The notes below the pieces were generated by a model. The model worked only from the letters and a program-made list of their open reading frames with translations, was not told where the DNA came from and searched no databases. The position numbers were made by a program, and so were the translations under genes. From a virus: a stretch of 22,626 nucleotides of DNA. Every line of letters starts with the position of its first letter. The first letter of the stretch is position 1. The stretch covers positions 1 to 22,626 of the IMG/VR virus record IMGVR_UViG_3300035698_002815; one strand, written 5' to 3'. Of the stretch, positions 835 to 8,542 are shown in pieces.

Positions 835-1094
835 TGCGCTATGCTACGGAACTCCACCAAGGGCTGTCTATCTGTGTTAGGTACGACGCCGCCCCGTCTC
901 CTCAGCTCCACGTCGATTTCGACGCCGTGGTTAGGGTGCTGGCTAGGCACGAGTTGCTGGTAGCCCAGTCCGTTTTTGGGTCGTTGCTGTCGGAGCGGCT
1001 CGACGGGCTGATAGGAGCCCCGAACGACCACACGTCTATATTAAAAGCTTTAGACGTAATAATAGCGACAGCTAGCGAGTGTATAGCGAGATGA
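834..1094 (+). CDS. Small protein of unknown function, 86 aa, starting MRYATEL
   Basis: ATG at 834 overlaps the stop of the preceding mini-ORF as TAATG; GGAG at about 821-824 can act as ribosome binding site. The stop at 1092-1094 overlaps the ATG of the next gene (ATGA). The product has a polar, Pro-containing N-terminal third and a C-terminal two-thirds that looks like three amphipathic helices (about residues 28-56 and 67-85), with no membrane segment and no metal site. I do not recognise it. Overlaps on both sides make it a probable translated member of the operon. Its start is duplicated upstream at 746, the most notable thing about it. Confidence 0.6.
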   Translation: MRYATELHQGLSICVRYDAAPSPQLHVDFDAVVRVLARHELLVAQSVFGSLLSERLDGLIGAPNDHTSILKALDVIIATASECIAR

Positions 1095-1837
1095 GCACGA
1101 GCGGCGCGAGCGGCGCCCCACCGGCGTTGGTCGGTGCAGGCGCTATCAGTGAGCTAGGGGTTCCGCTGGACCCTAGTATGTTTTTGTTAGAGCAGTTAGC
1201 TCGATATGAAATCGAGGTTCCCACTGCTGCTGGGGCCCACCTGGCTAGCTTCATGCAACGCGCCGTGCGGGGACACGTTTCCGCACTGCCTATGCAGTGT
1301 AAAGGCGCTAAGTGTAAATTTAAATCTATGTGCAGTTTGCTGTCGGCTGGGTTGGAACCGCCCACCGGACGGGTGTGCCCTATTGAAATGGCTCTGGTAG
1401 AGGCCTGGATAGCTAAATTCCGAGCAGCCACGGGGTTGGATACCGTAACCCTAGACGCTACCTCCATAGACCAAATGGAATTAATTTACGAAATAGTTGG
1501 GTCTGAGCTATTACGATATCGTGCATCGGTCCACCTACACGATACGCCGGAGCTAGTAACAGATCGTATAGTAGGGTACAGCCCGCAGGGCCAACCTATC
1601 TGGGACTTTAGGATTAGTCCTAGTCTATTAATTAATGAGAGACTTACTAAATTAATATTAAAGTTGAAAAAATCACTACTAGCTACGCCCGAGTCTCAGA
1701 TTAAAGCTGGCCGTTCTGCCGGAGACGCGTCGACCAATGCCGCAAAATTAAGAGAGAAAGCTCGCGAGGCGTCTGAGCGCCGTCGGGGCGAGATCAAAGA
1801 GGCAGATTTTGAAGTAGGTCCTAGCGAGCCTACCTAA
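1091..1837 (+). CDS. Four-cysteine, probably metal-binding protein, 248 aa; possible packaging partner
   Basis: I chose ATG at 1091, which overlaps the previous stop as ATGA; an in-frame GTG at 1079 would add 4 residues. The centre holds C70-x4-C75-x5-C81-x14-C96 (MQCKGAKCKFKSMC, then GRVCPIEMALVEAW), typical of a Zn or Fe-S site. It is followed by a helical region with R142/R144 and, at 197-240, a highly charged Lys/Arg/Glu tail likely to be a coiled coil. No nuclease, ATPase or HTH motif is seen. No classical small terminase is recognisable in this window, and this charged, helical, metal-binding protein upstream of the packaging genes is a candidate for that or another DNA-handling role. 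That is inference from position only. The ribosome binding site of the next gene, AAGGAGG, overlaps this gene's stop. Confidence 0.65.
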   Translation: MSTSGASGAPPALVGAGAISELGVPLDPSMFLLEQLARYEIEVPTAAGAHLASFMQRAVRGHVSALPMQCKGAKCKFKSMCSLLSAGLEPPTGRVCPIEMALVEAWIAKFRAATGLDTVTLDATSIDQMELIYEIVGSELLRYRASVHLHDTPELVTDRIVGYSPQGQPIWDFRISPSLLINERLTKLILKLKKSLLATPESQIKAGRSAGDASTNAAKLREKAREASERRRGEIKEADFEVGPSEPT

Positions 1838-1850
1838 GGAGGCTAGCATA

Positions 1851-3194
1851 GTGGCTATACGAGGACGAGGACCGCGTCGCCCCCGGCCTATTCATAAATG
1901 GCCGTATCAGGGTGGATTCGACCGTTATTATAACTGGGCATTTCCTACCTATCATAGGCGCGACTTCCTGCGGGGGCTGCCTCATAGCAAAACTACACTA
2001 GAGTCGGCTACCAGCCACTATAGAGCTAGGGGTAAGCCCATTCGCTACTCCGACACTTTCAAAGGTCGTGAACATGCTATTAAAAACTTTGTTAGAGAGG
2101 CTAACTTTAGGTTTCAAACTAGGAAGCCTCTGATCCCTACCGACGTCGGTTCCGGGGTTGGACTAACAGCGCGTAAGATAGCACCTACTGGTGCAGTACT
2201 TAAACTGCTGACGGCCACCCCGGAGTACCAATCCGTAACAGCCATAGGTCAGTTTATGGATTCTATGGGCCGTGTGGCCGCGCGTCCCGCAGCCCGTGCT
2301 GCGTCCGCTCGCGCCTGGAGCGCCGCGCTAGGAGGCTCGAACCGATTGGTCGGAGGAGCAGCCATAGGAGTAGGCGCTGTTTTAGGACTATACGCTGCTA
2401 GTCGCGTGTTTGGTTGGCTCGGCGGGCCGTCTCATAAAAATACCGTAGCGGCTAGTTTAATAGGGCAGCGCGGAGATCGACTACTAGAGTACCTAAAAAT
2501 AGCTCCGGACGACGGATCTGATCCAGCCATACTAGCTATTGGTACTGCTACGCACGAAACGATACAGCAGCAGATGTTGCAGGCCGGCCTAGCTGATTCA
2601 GTAGAGTACGAGGTGTTAGATACTACTTTAGGCATCAAAGGTTCCGTAGACGTCGTGCTGCCCGGAGGTATTCCCCTAGAACTAAAAACTACCAGCGCGA
2701 CGGCTATAGCCGCACTAGCTAAGCCCCGAGAGTCTCATGCATCGCAGGTTAACTTTTACGCACACGCCCTAGGCGCTCCGTTCGGTATCATTAGGTACAT
2801 AGACCGAGACGACCCCGAATCAACCGTAGAGTTTAGGGTTCCGTACCAACCCGGCCGATTAATATCTGATGTGCGTGAGGTCGCGCAAACTGTGATGCAA
2901 TACTCCAAATGGGCCCCTAGTAGGTACCTAAACTGGGCCACCCAGATAATTAATCCCGGCCTACGTAGCTCGGCCGGCGGGCTGTCCTCGTGGGAGTCCT
3001 TAAAACCACGTCCAGGGTGGGGCGGCGGACGAGATGATTCTCTAAAGCAGGTAGCTGACGCTCCTGTCACGCCAGCCACGCGCCTAAAAAACGTATCTAT
3101 TCGGGACTTAGGGCCCTTAGACCTGCACGCTCAGCGCATAGGTCATGGCTTACGCAATCAAAGTGTAAGGAGTAGGCCCAGAGGTACCCGATGA
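1851..3194 (+). CDS. PD-(D/E)XK (Cas4/RecB-type) nuclease with a hydrophobic segment, 447 aa
   Basis: The start is GTG at 1851, 8 bases after a perfect AAGGAGG (1836-1842). The N-terminal 45 residues are Arg/Pro/aromatic-rich. Residues 141-160 are Ala/Arg-rich and about 166-184 (GGAAIGVGAVLGLYAA) could cross or lie on a membrane. Residues 230-305 carry the full motif set of RecB/Cas4-family exonucleases: GTATHE with H235, GSVDVV with D267, ELK with E277 and K279, and QVNFY with Q299 and Y303. The catalytic site therefore looks intact. The C-terminal 80 residues are basic and low-complexity. No cysteine is present, so the Fe-S cluster seen in Cas4 and AddB is absent. It probably cuts or trims DNA. 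The position among virion genes and the hydrophobic segment suggest a membrane- or virion-linked nuclease rather than a replication enzyme; that part is inference. Confidence 0.8.
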   Translation: MAIRGRGPRRPRPIHKWPYQGGFDRYYNWAFPTYHRRDFLRGLPHSKTTLESATSHYRARGKPIRYSDTFKGREHAIKNFVREANFRFQTRKPLIPTDVGSGVGLTARKIAPTGAVLKLLTATPEYQSVTAIGQFMDSMGRVAARPAARAASARAWSAALGGSNRLVGGAAIGVGAVLGLYAASRVFGWLGGPSHKNTVAASLIGQRGDRLLEYLKIAPDDGSDPAILAIGTATHETIQQQMLQAGLADSVEYEVLDTTLGIKGSVDVVLPGGIPLELKTTSATAIAALAKPRESHASQVNFYAHALGAPFGIIRYIDRDDPESTVEFRVPYQPGRLISDVREVAQTVMQYSKWAPSRYLNWATQIINPGLRSSAGGLSSWESLKPRPGWGGGRDDSLKQVADAPVTPATRLKNVSIRDLGPLDLHAQRIGHGLRNQSVRSRPRGTR

Positions 3195-3712
3195 AACAAT
3201 CTATTATATGGAATCTAGTGCAGGAACTATTTTACTCGTTACGGCACCGCATCGGACCCGCAGCAGCCGGCGCGGTTGAGCACGGCACTCCTTTAATTAA
3301 ATCTGTAGGCCGGAGTCTGCCCGACGCACTGCTTACGCCTGGGGCGCGGGCAGCAGTAAAAACTCATATTCCTATAGCAGCCGAGTCAGTAATAGGTATG
3401 TTTGAAAAAGAACAGCGCAGTAAATTAATGCCCAGCATTCGTAAATATTTCGACGACCCCGTACACGGCGGGCTACGCACCGCAGCAGCTTATGGTGCTG
3501 GCGGCGTAGGAGCAGCTAACCTACTAGGGGTTGATCCAGGAGGTGTAGTATCTGATTACGTAAATCCTGGACTAGCGCTAGGAGCCCACGCTCTGTTAGG
3601 TCGTAGTGTAATAGGTATGGGCGGTACCGCGTCTCGTTTACTAGGTACTGGCTATTTGACACTAGCTGGCCTAAATACTCTTAGGTCTGGCGACCAGTTA
3701 GGGCCGATGTAA
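3191..3712 (+). CDS. Gly/Ala-rich hydrophobic protein, 173 aa, unknown function
   Basis: ATG at 3191 overlaps the nuclease stop (ATGA), with AGAGG 7 bases or so upstream. The N-terminal 25 residues form an amphipathic, aromatic-rich helix (IIWNLVQELFYSLRHR). Residues 65-90 are charged. Residues 97-118 and about 125-165 are long Gly/Ala/Leu stretches (AAAYGAGGVGAANLLG; LALGAHALLGRSVIGMGG) that could be loose membrane helices. No Cys is present. The composition resembles phage proteins that insert into membranes or lie inside the capsid, but no family is recognised. Tight overlap on both sides implies joint expression with the nuclease and the next gene. Confidence 0.65.
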   Translation: MKQSIIWNLVQELFYSLRHRIGPAAAGAVEHGTPLIKSVGRSLPDALLTPGARAAVKTHIPIAAESVIGMFEKEQRSKLMPSIRKYFDDPVHGGLRTAAAYGAGGVGAANLLGVDPGGVVSDYVNPGLALGAHALLGRSVIGMGGTASRLLGTGYLTLAGLNTLRSGDQLGPM

Positions 3713-4731
3713 TGAGCATCCTAAGTAGAATGCTAGGCGGACTATCTCGTATACCTACCAAAAGGTATCTTAGAGGACTAACCAACCGTGCAAACACCGC
3801 CGCTCTAGCCGCCCGAGCGGCTGTTAGAAATAGTCTACCTAACAAATTAGTTAATAGTGGGCTGGCTAATCGCGCTAGTAGAGCAGCTGGGTCACTAGTT
3901 GGAATGACCCCCGGTCGTATGCCTAATATGAGATTAGGTGGAGGAGCTCTACCGTATTTAGCCGTCGGGGCCCCTATAGCAGGTGGGGTAGCGTCCTCAG
4001 CTATGGGTTACGCGGCCGAGCGCTATCGTCGACACCAATCAGTAATGTATGGAGTGGACGACGCTAACACTAGTGCGTTTAGTATGGTAGGCGGCGTAGC
4101 TCTAGCCGCTGGGTTGGTCGTAGGAGCCGGCGCTCTGCTAAAAGCTGCCGCGCCGGGTCTAAGACTATCCGCTACTAACCGAGGGGCCGTCCAGGCCGCA
4201 GTAAAACGCGGCGGGCCGGTTAGTATGGCGCCCACCCCAGGATTCGTAGCTAGCGAGCAATCCGTATTAGCGCGTAGGGCCCTAACTCGTAAAGGCATTG
4301 GAGTTACTAGTGCTAGACCTGGTGTTATGGGCCCTCATCCCCAGGGCCCCTTAAAAATAGTCGGCCGCTCGGCGCAGTCTATTTCCGGGTCTGTAGTTAA
4401 CACTACGGGCAGGTTAGCAGGAGCTATAGGCGCCACGGGTGCACGAGGCGTACGAGGCATCACTCGCAAAGCTCTAAAGCCCGCTACGTGGGCTGTTGCT
4501 CAAACCTACCGCTCAGCCGCTTTTAGGCCTGGAGGGTGGCCTAACCTATTTTATGGCGGCGTAGCCGGGCTAGCTGCGGGGGCTTTACAGCCCACCCGTA
4601 GGCCCCACGTAGGGTCTCTTACACACACCGACGAGGGCCGGGCTGCTCGGGCTCGACTCCGGCGCAGCACCAATCAAACAGCACTAGGCTCGCACTACGG
4701 CCGCCGTCGTAGTTCGATGGGAGCACTGTAA
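3712..4731 (+). CDS. Basic Gly/Ala-rich putative membrane or internal virion protein, 339 aa
   Basis: ATG at 3712 overlaps the previous stop (TAATG). The product is rich in Ala, Gly and Arg with very few acidic residues, so it is strongly basic. Hydrophobic segments lie near residues 80-98, 123-148 (FSMVGGVALAAGLVVGAGAL) and 279-293 (LFYGGVAGLAAGAL). Between them are Arg/Lys-rich linkers that could bind DNA or phospholipid. The C terminus ends in a cluster of Arg (GRRRSSMGAL). It has no Cys, no catalytic motif, and no family that I recognise. Possible roles include an internal head protein ejected with the genome, a membrane-channel component, or a membrane partner of the nuclease two genes upstream. 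Confidence 0.65.
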   Translation: MSILSRMLGGLSRIPTKRYLRGLTNRANTAALAARAAVRNSLPNKLVNSGLANRASRAAGSLVGMTPGRMPNMRLGGGALPYLAVGAPIAGGVASSAMGYAAERYRRHQSVMYGVDDANTSAFSMVGGVALAAGLVVGAGALLKAAAPGLRLSATNRGAVQAAVKRGGPVSMAPTPGFVASEQSVLARRALTRKGIGVTSARPGVMGPHPQGPLKIVGRSAQSISGSVVNTTGRLAGAIGATGARGVRGITRKALKPATWAVAQTYRSAAFRPGGWPNLFYGGVAGLAAGALQPTRRPHVGSLTHTDEGRAARARLRRSTNQTALGSHYGRRRSSMGAL

Positions 4732-5318
4732 TGGCCCGTACTCTAAACGACGTGATAGACTCTGGACACGAGTCGGTATTCCACTCCATACCTGCTTGGT
4801 TGACTACTGAGTTAGGCGGGCACGTACTGGCCCCTAAATCCGGTGGCATACTAGGAGGCCGGTTAGGCCGAGGCCTATTAGACCGGCTAAAGACGGCAAC
4901 CCCGATTACGGCTACTCTAGGTATGCGTAGGGTTGAAGCAGCCCTAACCGCTAATCCTACACTAACCGAGGGCATGAGAAATTCACTTCGTAGACTAACC
5001 CGTAGCACAGACCCTGTGGCAGCACGTGCAGCTAGGGACGCTCCTTTCGACCTGGCTAAAAAACGCGTGGGTAGAGTAGCTAAACTGTTTAATACTTTCA
5101 TGGTATTAGAACTAGCGTTTAGTGCCGGTGCCGGAATAGCAGGATGGGCCAGTACTACCGCTCAGTCCGCCGCGTATACCAGATATCAGTCCCCTCCACC
5201 TGCTCTGGCGGGCGGCGCTGCTTATACACAACGTCAGCGAGCCATCGCTGCCATCCACCAATCCCAACTAACCACCAGAGCCATTATAGGCCAAGAAGCA
5301 TCCTACATGCATGGGTAA
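4731..5318 (+). CDS. Basic protein with one hydrophobic segment, 195 aa, unknown function
   Basis: ATG at 4731 overlaps the preceding stop (TAATG), with GGGAG upstream. The N-terminal 25 residues are soluble-looking (DSGHESVFHSIPAWL). Residues 39-115 are Arg/Leu/Ala-rich and probably helical. Residues 121-142 form one clear hydrophobic segment (FMVLELAFSAGAGIAGWA). The C-terminal 35 residues are polar with many Gln and Ala (AIHQSQLTTRAIIGQEAS). There is no cysteine. This is the last of four consecutive genes that share lack of Cys, positive charge and Gly/Ala-rich hydrophobic segments, which suggests the products act together. No family is recognised. Confidence 0.65.
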   Translation: MARTLNDVIDSGHESVFHSIPAWLTTELGGHVLAPKSGGILGGRLGRGLLDRLKTATPITATLGMRRVEAALTANPTLTEGMRNSLRRLTRSTDPVAARAARDAPFDLAKKRVGRVAKLFNTFMVLELAFSAGAGIAGWASTTAQSAAYTRYQSPPPALAGGAAYTQRQRAIAAIHQSQLTTRAIIGQEASYMHG

Positions 5319-5324
5319 TTCGTA

Positions 5325-5591
5325 ATGCCACCAGCAAAAACCAACGGTAATAGTAAATTGTTAATTGGAATCCTACTAGGGATACTTGGTACTGTCGTAC
5401 CCGGCATCGTAGTAGGTCAGACTGTAATAGCTCATCAAGCCAAAGTTATTAAAAAGGAGTTGTGCCTGGAAATGGAGGCCCACTATTTTTGTAACGATAA
5501 AGGAGATGCCCTCAGAGACTTGCTGATACGTATCGACCGTAGGCTGGTTGTTATCGAAACTATGTTGAAGGCCTCTAAAAACCCTCGGTAG
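5325..5591 (+). CDS. Small single-span membrane protein, 88 aa
   Basis: The product has a short polar N terminus, a strong membrane helix at about residues 11-33 (KLLIGILLGILGTVVPGIVV) and a charged, probably helical or coiled-coil tail (RDLLIRIDRRLVVIETML). Two cysteines (C47, C56) lie just after the helix region. The layout, one N-terminal anchor plus a charged tail, resembles accessory lysis proteins or small membrane anchors. No lysis gene lies nearby, so the role is open. The start at 5325 has no good ribosome binding site; translation may depend on the preceding gene, which ends 6 bases upstream. Confidence 0.6.
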   Translation: MPPAKTNGNSKLLIGILLGILGTVVPGIVVGQTVIAHQAKVIKKELCLEMEAHYFCNDKGDALRDLLIRIDRRLVVIETMLKASKNPR

Positions 5592-5600
5592 GAGCTATTA

Positions 5601-6479
5601 ATGGACTTAGAAAAATTTGATCAGTTAGTGGAACAAGGTTATGGCCGCAGACGACTGGCGGCAGCACTGGGAGTTAGCGAGTGGTCTATTAGAAAACATA
5701 CTGCCGCGTCTCCTGTTAAACCTAGTGGATTTCGTAAGGGACCTAACAAAATATTGTGTTTTGGAGATACACACATACCGTACCAAGATGATCAGGCCAT
5801 ATCAATTCTTAAACAGTGGATACCTATATATAAACCAGATACTATAGTTTTACTAGGAGATATGATAGATGTATGGCAGTTATCGAGGTTCGTTAAAGAT
5901 AGTTCGCGCGCGTTTACTTTACAATCCGATATAGACCTAACCATAGAGTTTTTGCGTTCCATTAGGACCATAGCAGGTCCTGCCACCACTATATATTTTC
6001 TAGAGGGCAATCACTGCCGGAGGATGTCTACTTACCTACAGTCTCGCGCGTCTGAGCTTTATTCACTCAAAGCACTAGCACTACCTATCATCCTGGAGCT
6101 GGAATCCATGGGCATAACCTGGGTACCTAACCATGATATGTTACATATAGGCCCGATACTATTTAGTCACGGTGAGGTAGTACGTAAATGGGCTGGGTAT
6201 ACTGCCCACGCTATGCTGGAAAAATACCAGCAATCCGTGGTTATGGGCCACGTGCACCGACTAGCCGCTTCCTACCAACGCGTTAGGGATGAAGCCTGCG
6301 TAGGCATTGAGTCCGGATGTCTGTGCTCTTTAGACCAAGAGTATTGTAAGCACCCTAACTGGCAACAAGGCTGGGTTACCATAGACTTATTGGACGATCT
6401 AGATTGGTGTTGGCAGCTCTACCACGTAAATCACGGTAGACTGGCCACTCCCCAAGGGGTGATCTATGGCAAAAACTAA
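5601..6479 (+). CDS. Calcineurin-like metallophosphoesterase with N-terminal helix-turn-helix, 292 aa
   Basis: ATG at 5601 follows GGAG. Residues 1-35 read as a small helix-turn-helix (YGRRRLAAALGVSEWSIRKH). From residue 50 the metallophosphoesterase motifs appear in order: GDTH (D56, H58), GDMID (D87, D90), GNH (N137, H138), SHGE (H190) and GHVH (H217, H219). All metal ligands of the di-metal site are therefore present. The family hydrolyses phosphomono- or diesters, including nucleic acid and cyclic nucleotides; the substrate here cannot be read from sequence. The HTH suggests it is directed to DNA. It lies just before the terminase and overlaps the next small gene by 14 bases, so a role in packaging or end processing is possible but unproven. 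Confidence 0.85.
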   Translation: MDLEKFDQLVEQGYGRRRLAAALGVSEWSIRKHTAASPVKPSGFRKGPNKILCFGDTHIPYQDDQAISILKQWIPIYKPDTIVLLGDMIDVWQLSRFVKDSSRAFTLQSDIDLTIEFLRSIRTIAGPATTIYFLEGNHCRRMSTYLQSRASELYSLKALALPIILELESMGITWVPNHDMLHIGPILFSHGEVVRKWAGYTAHAMLEKYQQSVVMGHVHRLAASYQRVRDEACVGIESGCLCSLDQEYCKHPNWQQGWVTIDLLDDLDWCWQLYHVNHGRLATPQGVIYGKN

Positions 6480-6651
6480 TTATTTAAGGTGCCCCAAGCT
6501 AAAAATTACAGTAATAGAAGTATCAGATACGGGGGACATTAAAGTGTCTGAGCAGTTTTCAGACTGCTACCGTAAATACTGTAGTGCTTGGGACGCTGAT
6601 ACCAAAAAGTGTTTGATCTACCACACTGACGCCGAGGAAGAGGATGAGTAA
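6466..6651 (+). CDS. Small Cys-containing protein, 61 aa
   Basis: ATG at 6466 lies inside the end of the phosphoesterase gene, and the stop at 6649-6651 overlaps the terminase start by 8 bases. Four cysteines (C9, C34, C39, C49) and a C-terminal His (H53), in CPKLK, DCYRKYCSAW and KKCLIYH, suggest a small Zn-binding fold. The C terminus is very acidic (DAEEEDE) and also supplies the GA-rich ribosome binding site of the terminase gene. I do not recognise a family. The overlaps on both sides make it probably translated and coupled to terminase. It could be a terminase partner, since terminase itself has an N-terminal Cys cluster. Confidence 0.6.
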   Translation: MAKTNYLRCPKLKITVIEVSDTGDIKVSEQFSDCYRKYCSAWDADTKKCLIYHTDAEEEDE

Positions 6652-8542
6652 CGATACTATAGTATCTAAAGGGTATATACCAGAGCGAGACTACCCAGCA
6701 GTAGACTATCAACCTATAGGGCCTCGTCCAGGCGGGTGTAAGAACCAGTGCAGAGACTGTCGCGCGTATTATTGTATGCTAATGGAGCTAGGTATTACTA
6801 ATAGGGTTATGCCTCCTAAATGCCGTGGATTGGTAGTAGAGAACCTGGACTTCGTACACGAAGCCGATTTCGATTCTACTACGGAATATGAGGACGCGCT
6901 AATCCTAATGGATCCCGTAGCATGGGCTGCTCGTGAACTAGACTGGACTCCTAGGTGGTACCAGTCTGAGATCCTGGACTGCACCGCGCAGTTCAAAGTG
7001 CTCCGAGCCGGACGTCGGGTAGGCAAATCAGAAGCCATGATGGTATATACGCTGTACAAAGCAGCTACGTGCTCTAAGTTTCCCATACTAGTAATAGCTC
7101 CGTACGAAGCCCAGGTAACTATGTTGTTTGACGTAATGGCTAGGATGATATCCGAGTCAGCTACTCTGCAGGGCTCTATTAAGCGTTTTACGCAAAACCC
7201 ACATCGTATAGAGTTCTTAAACGGGGCTCGTATACTAGGGTTCACCGCTGGGGCTAAATCCGGTGCTAGGTCAGACAAAATCCGTGGTCAAGACGCCAAA
7301 CTAATCGTTTTCGATGAAATCGATTTTATGGATTCTATAGAGCTAGAAGCCATCCTAGCTATCCTAACGTCTCATCCTGACTGTGAGTTAATGGCTAGTT
7401 CTACGCCTACTGGCGAGCACAAAATGTTCTTTTCGTGGTGCGTAAATAAGAATCTAGGTTTCAAAGAGACCCATATCATTAGTATGGAATCTCCTACGTG
7501 GACTGCTGAAACAGAGGCCACAGTACGAGGCGCGTATTCGTCTATAGGATTCGAACACGAGTTTTTGGCTGAGTGGGGTACGTCTGAGCATGGCGTGTTC
7601 CGTAACGCTGACATAGACGGTTCCCTCAGCAACTATGACATGTCCGAGTGTAAACCCAATCCTAACTGTACTTATATAGTTGGAGTAGACTGGAACAAAA
7701 ACGCTGGTACCCACATAATAGTTACCGAGTGGAACGGTACAGTTTTCCGTCCTGTATATAAATCTATTATACAGTCCGATGAGTACTCTCAAACTCTAGC
7801 TATAGAAAAAGTCGCACAGGCCTTTACTGACTGGAGTGCGTCCTGGATCTACGCAGACGCTGGATATGGCCAGGTTCAAATAGAAACCCTAAAAAAGCTG
7901 GGCCAGACCAACCCCGGTACTAGGCTGTCTGGACGGGTAAAAGGCATAGCTATGGGCTCTCAAATCCTAATACGGGACCCAGACACTAACCTAGAAGTCA
8001 AAAAGCCTGCTAAACCTTTCATGGTCAACATATCTGCGCTACAGGTCGAGGAGTCCCGAGTCCAGTTACCAGCATCAGAGGATACTCACGTAACATCTGA
8101 TGACGATGGGTCTGCACAGCACGGTCTAGTGCAGCAAATGCGCAACTTTAAAGTAGACCGCGTGTCCGCCCTAGGGTTGCCAGTATACTCTCAAGGCCAG
8201 GAACATACTCTAACAGCTTTTATGTTGACTTTGATGGGCTTCATATTGGAACTGTCCGACTTAACTAAAGGCACTCCAGACTCTAGGGTACTATCGTGTG
8301 GTCCTAAGGAAGCTACCACTACAGTAAAACAGGAGTCCCTAGACGAGCGCAAAAATCGCATTATGGGCACCACCAGTAGGGACTTAGCCGATTCATCTAT
8401 CACTCGTTCCCCTGGACTGAGTGATCTAGCACGATCTACTAACTATCGTAGTAGACAGCGTACGGCTACGCGTACTAATTTGTCCGATTATTTAAAAAAT
8501 CGTCGGCGTGACCTAGGTAGTGGCTCTAGGAAATCATTCTAA
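6644..8542 (+). CDS. terL: Terminase large subunit with an N-terminal cysteine cluster, 632 aa
   Basis: This is the DNA packaging motor: an ATPase that pumps DNA into the prohead and a nuclease that cuts the concatemer. The Walker A motif is RAGRRVGKSEA at 121-131 (K128), Walker B is LIVFDE at 220-225, and the coupling motif SST is at 252-254. The RNase H-like nuclease begins with GVDW (D349), then YADAGYG (D405), with a late GQEHTL that may give the third acidic ligand. The N terminus has C32-x3-C36-x2-C39-x4-C44 and C60, a probable metal site not typical of large terminases. The C-terminal 60 residues are Arg/Ser-rich and flexible. It overlaps the preceding gene by 8 bases and the following one by TAATG. 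Confidence 0.93.
   Translation: MSNDTIVSKGYIPERDYPAVDYQPIGPRPGGCKNQCRDCRAYYCMLMELGITNRVMPPKCRGLVVENLDFVHEADFDSTTEYEDALILMDPVAWAARELDWTPRWYQSEILDCTAQFKVLRAGRRVGKSEAMMVYTLYKAATCSKFPILVIAPYEAQVTMLFDVMARMISESATLQGSIKRFTQNPHRIEFLNGARILGFTAGAKSGARSDKIRGQDAKLIVFDEIDFMDSIELEAILAILTSHPDCELMASSTPTGEHKMFFSWCVNKNLGFKETHIISMESPTWTAETEATVRGAYSSIGFEHEFLAEWGTSEHGVFRNADIDGSLSNYDMSECKPNPNCTYIVGVDWNKNAGTHIIVTEWNGTVFRPVYKSIIQSDEYSQTLAIEKVAQAFTDWSASWIYADAGYGQVQIETLKKLGQTNPGTRLSGRVKGIAMGSQILIRDPDTNLEVKKPAKPFMVNISALQVEESRVQLPASEDTHVTSDDDGSAQHGLVQQMRNFKVDRVSALGLPVYSQGQEHTLTAFMLTLMGFILELSDLTKGTPDSRVLSCGPKEATTTVKQESLDERKNRIMGTTSRDLADSSITRSPGLSDLARSTNYRSRQRTATRTNLSDYLKNRRRDLGSGSRKSF

Follow-up and report, generated by a model that had tools for sequence, protein, structure and literature searches.

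A cysteine-free, nuclease-bearing gene cassette upstream of the phage terminase as a candidate virion ejection system

Four overlapping genes, here named A to D, at positions 1851-5318 of the viral record IMGVR_UViG_3300035698_002815 encode 1154 residues without a single cysteine. The record, a 22.6-kb stretch analysed here as a whole (hereafter the window), carries head and packaging genes of a contractile-tailed phage. Our analyses favour the interpretation of the block as a virion-internal ejection cassette, in which A would be an exchangeable effector on a core formed by B, C and D (rough probability 0.72). This reading explains together the exclusion of cysteine, the basic charge, the hydrophobic segments, the position of the genes and the exchange of enzymes that are described below.

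Results

A basic, cysteine-free block in the head and packaging cluster

The window continues from the block to the terminase (from 6644), portal (10290), capsid (14687) and tail sheath (19817) genes, capsid and sheath being assigned by position and by comparison with relatives. Genes A to D overlap by 4, 1 and 1 nucleotides, and their products are all basic (isoelectric points of 10.4, 9.7, 12.0 and 11.0, respectively) and contain 22-32% Gly+Ala. The genes on both sides do encode cysteine, with four residues in the product of 1079-1837 (protein Z), two in that of 5325-5591 and 12 in the terminase. These counts confirm a first-pass annotation of the same DNA, made from the sequence alone, which had described four overlapping, cysteine-free, basic and Gly/Ala-rich genes between cysteine-containing neighbours. 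It had also called the three partners of A membrane-like, which holds for C and D, where a 19-residue hydrophobic segment is clear (from residues 125 and 119, respectively), as it is in A (166-184), but only in part for B, where no segment rose above the cut-off (Kyte-Doolittle, 19-residue window).

Cysteine exclusion across the cassette family

In the downstream proteins of the same loci cysteine occurs at 8.99 per 1000 residues, and at 5.57 per 1000 in their Gly/Ala-rich subset. At these rates (9.0 and 5.6 per 1000) about ten and about six cysteines, respectively, would be expected in the window block, which is unlikely to be cysteine-free by chance even when taken alone. Across the cassette family chance is excluded, since 136 non-redundant cassette proteins hold 8 cysteines in 45,649 residues (0.18 per 1000). 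The eight are confined to six proteins, four having one each and those of loci L010 and L089 having two, placed at the C-terminus or close to it, and slot proteins (those at the position of A) of 1496, 1516 and 1795 residues contain none. Nine open reading frames (ORFs) of the cassette interval were omitted from the main count as clear insertions, as genes of the flanks or as ORFs of doubtful status; their inclusion raises it to 45 cysteines in 47,323 residues (0.95 per 1000), still about nine-fold under the downstream genes.

The same exclusion is seen at the level of codons. TGT and TGC are absent in frame from the window block and occur 26 and 38 times in its other two frames, and cassette-wide they number 8 among 58,709 in-frame codons as against 1207 and 3021 off frame. 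The residue ratio of the cassette is 0.02 for cysteine and 0.56 for the next-lowest residue. A net basic charge is likewise characteristic of the family, being found in 130 of the 136 cassette proteins and in 55 of 300 downstream proteins.

Relatives and conserved gene order

Relatives were obtained solely via the terminase; a direct search with A found none, and neither did tblastn of D against known phages. In the terminase-found relatives the order Z, slot A, B, C, D, terminase recurs, and most loci that extend far enough have the gene of the four-cysteine protein Z immediately 5' of the cassette. A strict motif recognized protein D in 52 loci, in 51 of which it is cysteine-free, and further D-like proteins were identified by eye in L025, L041, L058, L062, L072, L078, L080, L083, L088, L090 and L091. 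Protein D nearly always adjoins the terminase, or is separated from it by optional genes (metallophosphoesterase, HNH) that differ among relatives, the phosphoesterase and HNH inserts retaining their cysteines. In the window and in its relatives alike, the cassette thus belongs to a late head and packaging cluster, upstream of the terminase, portal and capsid.

Cultured members are Bacillus phage vB_BauM_KLEB27-3, Moorella phage MTATph1 and Acinetobacter phage vB_AbaM_ME3, the cassette products corresponding to gp006-gp009, CDS0251-0253 and gp011-gp012, respectively, and two further relatives lie on genome contigs titled Paenibacillus and Clostridium, so that the hosts span Gram-positive and Gram-negative bacteria. 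The annotation of ME3 implies that phage 0305phi8-36 carries a cassette between p112 and the terminase; the comparative paper on 0305phi8-36 does not discuss the genes in this interval.

Protein A is a RecB/Cas4-type nuclease

Protein A matches the phage exonuclease family phrog_1706 (E=2.6e-18), and its profile matches Cas4 (4r5q) in the PDB (E=6.5e-5). In an alignment of A with 14 relatives, G231, D267, E277, K279 and Q299 are invariant, N301 and Y303 are kept in at least 90% of the sequences and H235 in most. The AlphaFold2 model is confident in the nuclease core (predicted local distance difference test, pLDDT, 93-98) and of low confidence outside it, and Foldseek searches with this model retrieved Cas4 SSO0001 (7.5e-8), MGME1 and lambda exonuclease. 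The hydrophobic segment sits N-terminal to the nuclease domain. Motifs, profile, fold and segment thus agree with the PD-(D/E)XK nuclease with a hydrophobic segment that the first-pass annotation had proposed, and A is a RecB/Cas4-type member of this superfamily with intact catalytic motifs and a confident fold. As the D, E, K and Q residues are invariant and the fold matches, A is predicted to be catalytically active.

With Cas4, RecB-family and lambda-exonuclease-like nucleases A shares the fold and the GxxxH, D, ExK and QxxxY motifs, and it differs from them in carrying a hydrophobic segment and no cysteine. In Cas4, four cysteines bind an iron-sulfur cluster; with no cysteine in its 447 residues A lacks the ligands for such a cluster, and its identification as a CRISPR Cas4 was therefore rejected in favour of a nuclease that is RecB/Cas4-like but not Cas4. 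No cas-like protein was found among the searched proteins of the window, which is a 22.6-kb fragment in which no search for CRISPR arrays was made.

Exchange of the slot enzyme

The position of A is occupied by different enzymes in different relatives. A PD-(D/E)XK domain alone is found in the window, L005, L066 and L089 (L005 and L066 being cut by the contig end), a DEDDh 3'-5' exonuclease in L003 and ME3, DEDD plus PD-(D/E)XK in L010, L017, L021, L027, L052 and others, DEDD plus staphylococcal nuclease (SNase) in L050, L061 and L077 (PF00565, 3.3e-9 to 2.8e-15), and DUF4406 plus DEDD without PD-(D/E)XK in L032. In L062 the slot (1266-2420) holds a cysteine-free VanY/M15 peptidase with PHROG endolysin matches (1.7e-27), likely a wall-degrading ejected enzyme. 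No recognized slot enzyme occurs in KLEB27-3, L069 and L087, where B, C and D are still present. The DEDD assignments rest on Pfam, PHROG and PDB support in proteins of the L003/L021 type and on motifs seen by eye in several long proteins; the motif script missed the domain in L032, L045 and L049, in which the ExoI motif is present.

Mapped onto a tree of 31 terminases, the slot class shows at least nine changes. The sister loci L010 (DEDD plus PD-(D/E)XK) and L032 (DEDD plus DUF4406), grouped at 100/99, differ in slot class, which indicates that the slot turns over while B-C-D persists. Since the slot enzyme is exchanged or lost while B, C and D stay, the nuclease is better regarded as cargo than as the core of a fixed complex. 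The link between the four genes proposed in the first-pass annotation is supported by the conserved cassette upstream of the terminase and by shared freedom from cysteine, but the nuclease is not an obligatory member.

Among 20 slot-A proteins examined, a Gly/Ala-rich hydrophobic segment is the top-scoring window in most, placed ahead of the second nuclease or following the DEDD domain; the exceptions include L052, with its top window inside the nuclease, and L061, with its top window near the C-terminus. Many long slot proteins carry a linker, [YF][ND]xIxGIxPSG...DFGSG, between their domains, with at least four copies in L080. The latter protein (L080:3417-7784, 1455 amino acids, cysteine-free) combines a DEDD-like start and a DnaJ-like part (PF00226 8.9e-4, phrog_13942 1.8e-9) with a HELGH motif and, at the C-terminus, a kinase-like part; repeats of the form DDxYNTIEGLRHGG...DFGSG lie between them. 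L047 and L049 (L049:1967-7354, 1795 amino acids, no cysteine) join a HAD-like motif, LVDIDSTLL (by eye), to DEDD-like and PD-(D/E)XK domains in one chain. Between Z and its DEDD slot protein, ME3 encodes an extra TnsA-like endonuclease (L014:5459-5911; PF08722, 5.1e-14), which is likewise cysteine-free and carries the annotation of a head completion protein. An SNase domain, unexplained by the authors, has been described on a baseplate hub protein of the related phage-like region BtI1 (PMC2147016), with which the slot SNase of the relatives may be connected.

Conserved C-terminal tails of proteins B, C and D

Each of B, C and D ends in a conserved C-terminal peptide on an otherwise divergent body, with the consensus NxxRxGDNxGPF in B, STxGLTxALHxxR in C and TxRQRAxxAIHNSxxxxRxALGNEAxxxH in D, in which T166, R168 and E189 are invariant among 37 sequences. 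The model of D is all-helical (helices 107-153 and 167-194) and of low confidence (pLDDT 68, predicted template modelling score 0.33), and D has no PDB match; no fold is therefore claimed. Matches of D to OrfX2 (E 0.2 and 3.8) were treated as chance. Two cysteine-free proteins with a D-type tail, L088:6302-9919 (1205 amino acids) and L091:6739-9498 (919 amino acids), have long repeated or charged N-terminal parts.

Neighbouring genes

The coordinates of the block and its neighbours are given in Table 1. The four cysteines of Z are invariant in an alignment of five homologues. Z belongs to no known family, and GM2-activator matches (E 0.037) were treated as chance; its position before the terminase would be compatible with a small terminase or with an assembly factor that binds metal. 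Insertions were observed in several relatives: intein-like sequences lengthen the terminase genes at L010:9941-13126, L013:5296-8250 and L014:9152-11434, ME3 Z (L014:4078-5373) seems to contain one as well, and in MTATph1 a PhoH-like gene with two cysteines (L011:12331-13155) lies within the cassette interval.

Table 1. Features of the four-gene block and its surroundings in the window
Feature	Position	Strand	Description
Z	1079..1837	+	252 aa; conserved 5' neighbour of the cassette, not cysteine-free; C-x4-C-x5-C-x14-C
A, slot protein	1851..3194	+	447 aa; hydrophobic segment followed by RecB/Cas4-type PD-(D/E)XK nuclease domain; 0 Cys
A, hydrophobic Gly/Ala-rich segment, residues 166-184, LVGGAAIGVGAVLGLYAAS	2346..2402	+	Kyte-Doolittle mean 1.76 over 19 residues
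A, nuclease motifs G231-x3-H235, D267, E277-x-K279, Q299-x3-Y303	2541..2759	+	From alignment with relatives
B	3191..3712	+	173 aa; basic, 0 Cys; position kept in relatives
B, C-terminal tail NTLRSGDQLGPM	3674..3709	+	Family form NxxRxGDNxGPF; from comparison of B C-termini
C	3712..4731	+	339 aa; very basic (charge +40) and Gly/Ala-rich, no cysteine; a single strong hydrophobic segment; position kept in relatives
C, C-terminal tail TNQTALGSHYGRRR	4663..4728	+	Weak match to STxGLTxALHxxR; from comparison of C C-termini, window version divergent
D	4731..5318	+	195 aa; basic and predicted helical, no cysteine; the most strongly conserved of the four proteins
D, C-terminal tail TQRQRAIAAIHQSQLTTRAIIGQEASYMHG	5226..5315	+	Family signature; from alignment of 37 sequences
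88-aa protein	5325..5591	+	N-terminal hydrophobic segment, 2 Cys; in variable D-phosphoesterase gap, outside the cysteine-free block
Metallophosphoesterase	5601..6479	+	7 Cys; PF00149 2.7e-8, phrog_221 1.6e-44; optional insert between D and terminase, outside the cysteine-free block
Terminase large subunit	6644..8542	+	12 Cys; phrog_2 5.8e-32; 3' landmark for finding relatives

Discussion

A proposed route from head to host

The first-pass annotation had suggested ejection into the host together with the genome. This suggestion gains comparative support from the conservation of the cassette, from its freedom from cysteine and from the presence of the same trait in known ejection proteins; ejection itself we infer. 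Proteins B, C and D would reside in the head interior, where docking of their conserved C-terminal tails would probably hold them at the portal or prohead, and would leave it together with the DNA or ahead of it to insert into the host envelope. A would ride on the B-C-D core, anchored by its single Gly/Ala-rich hydrophobic segment, and the nuclease would be delivered at the entry site, where it could attack host or rival nucleic acid or trim the incoming DNA. Host or rival nucleic acid is the most likely target, because unrelated nucleases, including the staphylococcal type, replace each other; end processing of incoming DNA comes second. Cysteine would be excluded because the proteins would pass the tail tube in a flexible or unfolded state and, in Gram-negative hosts, also an oxidising compartment, and disulfides would jam their passage.

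Objections and alternative explanations

Several points weigh against ejection. Freedom from cysteine is not specific to ejected proteins, being found also in the scaffolds T7 gp9 and P22 gp8 and in the P22 gp26 needle, and 41 of the 300 downstream proteins are likewise cysteine-free. Searches of Pfam, PHROGs and the PDB related none of B, C and D, by sequence or by fold, to a known ejection protein. No virion proteome of a cassette member was found in the literature searched. Contractile-tailed phages have no obvious need for an extra conduit, and a nuclease close to the incoming DNA could be detrimental to the phage that carries it.

The main rival is a prohead core or scaffold, with B to D internal and removed at maturation and A acting on DNA during packaging (branch clearing, end trimming) in the virion-producing cell. 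The location of the block beside the terminase would suit such a role, as would the cysteine-free scaffolds of T7 and P22 and, in the ME3 cassette, the TnsA-like nuclease with its annotation as a head completion protein. Scaffolds, however, lack a conserved hydrophobic segment and exchangeable domains of the DEDD, SNase and VanY types, their genes are expected after the portal or protease, and an essential packaging nuclease should not vanish in KLEB27-3, L069 and L087 while B to D stay; we thus regard this explanation as unlikely. Less probable again is an unpackaged membrane complex, made late in the infected cell for superinfection exclusion or degradation of host DNA. It would accommodate the hydrophobic segments and the fact that nucleases of the cassette types are known from defence systems (Cas4-like and SNase-LTD matches in PADLOC), but it leaves the near-total loss of cysteine in four different proteins unexplained and does not agree with genes placed inside a head and packaging cluster.

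The absence of cysteine could finally be a by-product of a low-complexity composition rich in Gly, Ala and Arg, uninformative on delivery. Cassette proteins are indeed rich in Gly, Ala, Met and Arg, but those with less than 20% Gly+Ala still contain only 0.31 cysteines per 1000 residues, far from the rate of Gly/Ala-rich downstream proteins given above. Moreover, the folded enzymes of 1496-1795 residues have none, and Trp, Phe and His are not depleted. On the cysteine rates by Gly+Ala class, the off-frame TGT/TGC counts and the residue ratios, we reject this explanation as very improbable.

Comparison with known systems

Experimentally known ejected proteins offer the closest parallel to the ejection reading. 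T7 gp15 and gp16, P22 gp7, gp16 and gp20 and the virion RNA polymerase (vRNAP) of N4 (3500 residues) contain no cysteine and T7 gp14 contains one, while most other virion proteins of these T7, P22 and N4 controls do contain it. The cysteine-freedom of N4-like vRNAPs has been noted and ascribed to passage through the tail or to the oxidising periplasm (PMC3715699, PMC3915230, PMC2784036). In common with these proteins, the cassette is (nearly) cysteine-free, encoded by late virion genes with several products per cluster, provided with hydrophobic segments and associated with variable enzymatic cargo, which in those systems is a polymerase or transglycosylase. It differs in showing no detectable sequence or fold relation, in belonging to phages with a tail sheath, in carrying a nuclease as cargo and in combining conserved C-terminal tails with an exchangeable slot ahead of the terminase.

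Polyvalent proteins, proposed as injected multidomain effectors of phages and conjugative elements (Iyer et al. 2017, PMC5512222), resemble the long multidomain slot proteins of relatives such as L080 and L049 in their late-gene context and proposed injection. By contrast, A of the window has one catalytic domain, several relatives having two or more, and the small B-C-D partners fall outside that concept; in a text search of PMC5512222, neither SNase nor DEDD, transmembrane or cysteine turned up. The phiKZ inner body, with clustered genes for head-internal, co-injected proteins (PMC13282480), is similar in gene clustering but belongs to another phage lineage, and no similarity to it was detected, a direct comparison not having been made. 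In its proposed mode of action the nuclease-armed, cysteine-free cassette resembles ejection and polyvalent proteins, yet it fits none of these families. The first-pass annotation knew of no named system of this make-up; a description of the cassette was indeed not found in literature text searches, the scope of which took in few subscription papers, but related ideas, namely cysteine-free N4-type vRNAPs and polyvalent proteins, had been published.

Implications

The cassette may be an instance of a more general, virion-based delivery of effectors, in which a B-C-D core with C-terminal sorting tails would be combined with one slot of linker-strung domains (nucleases, peptidase, kinase-like, DnaJ-like and others), all of them free of cysteine. 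This broader proposal is tentative, and we place it slightly below even odds; if true, it would be the phage equivalent of polymorphic effector systems, and the absence of cysteine could serve to predict ejected proteins across phage genomes. The C-terminal tails may serve to load cargo into phage heads. The injected proteins of large contractile-tailed phages are mostly unknown, and the cassette predicts a specific set of them, including DNA-cutting enzymes, in a widespread and mostly uncultured phage group with cultured members on Bacillus, Moorella and Acinetobacter. The cassette also suggests a simple rule, by which sustained cysteine exclusion in large late proteins would flag ejected proteins that homology searches miss.

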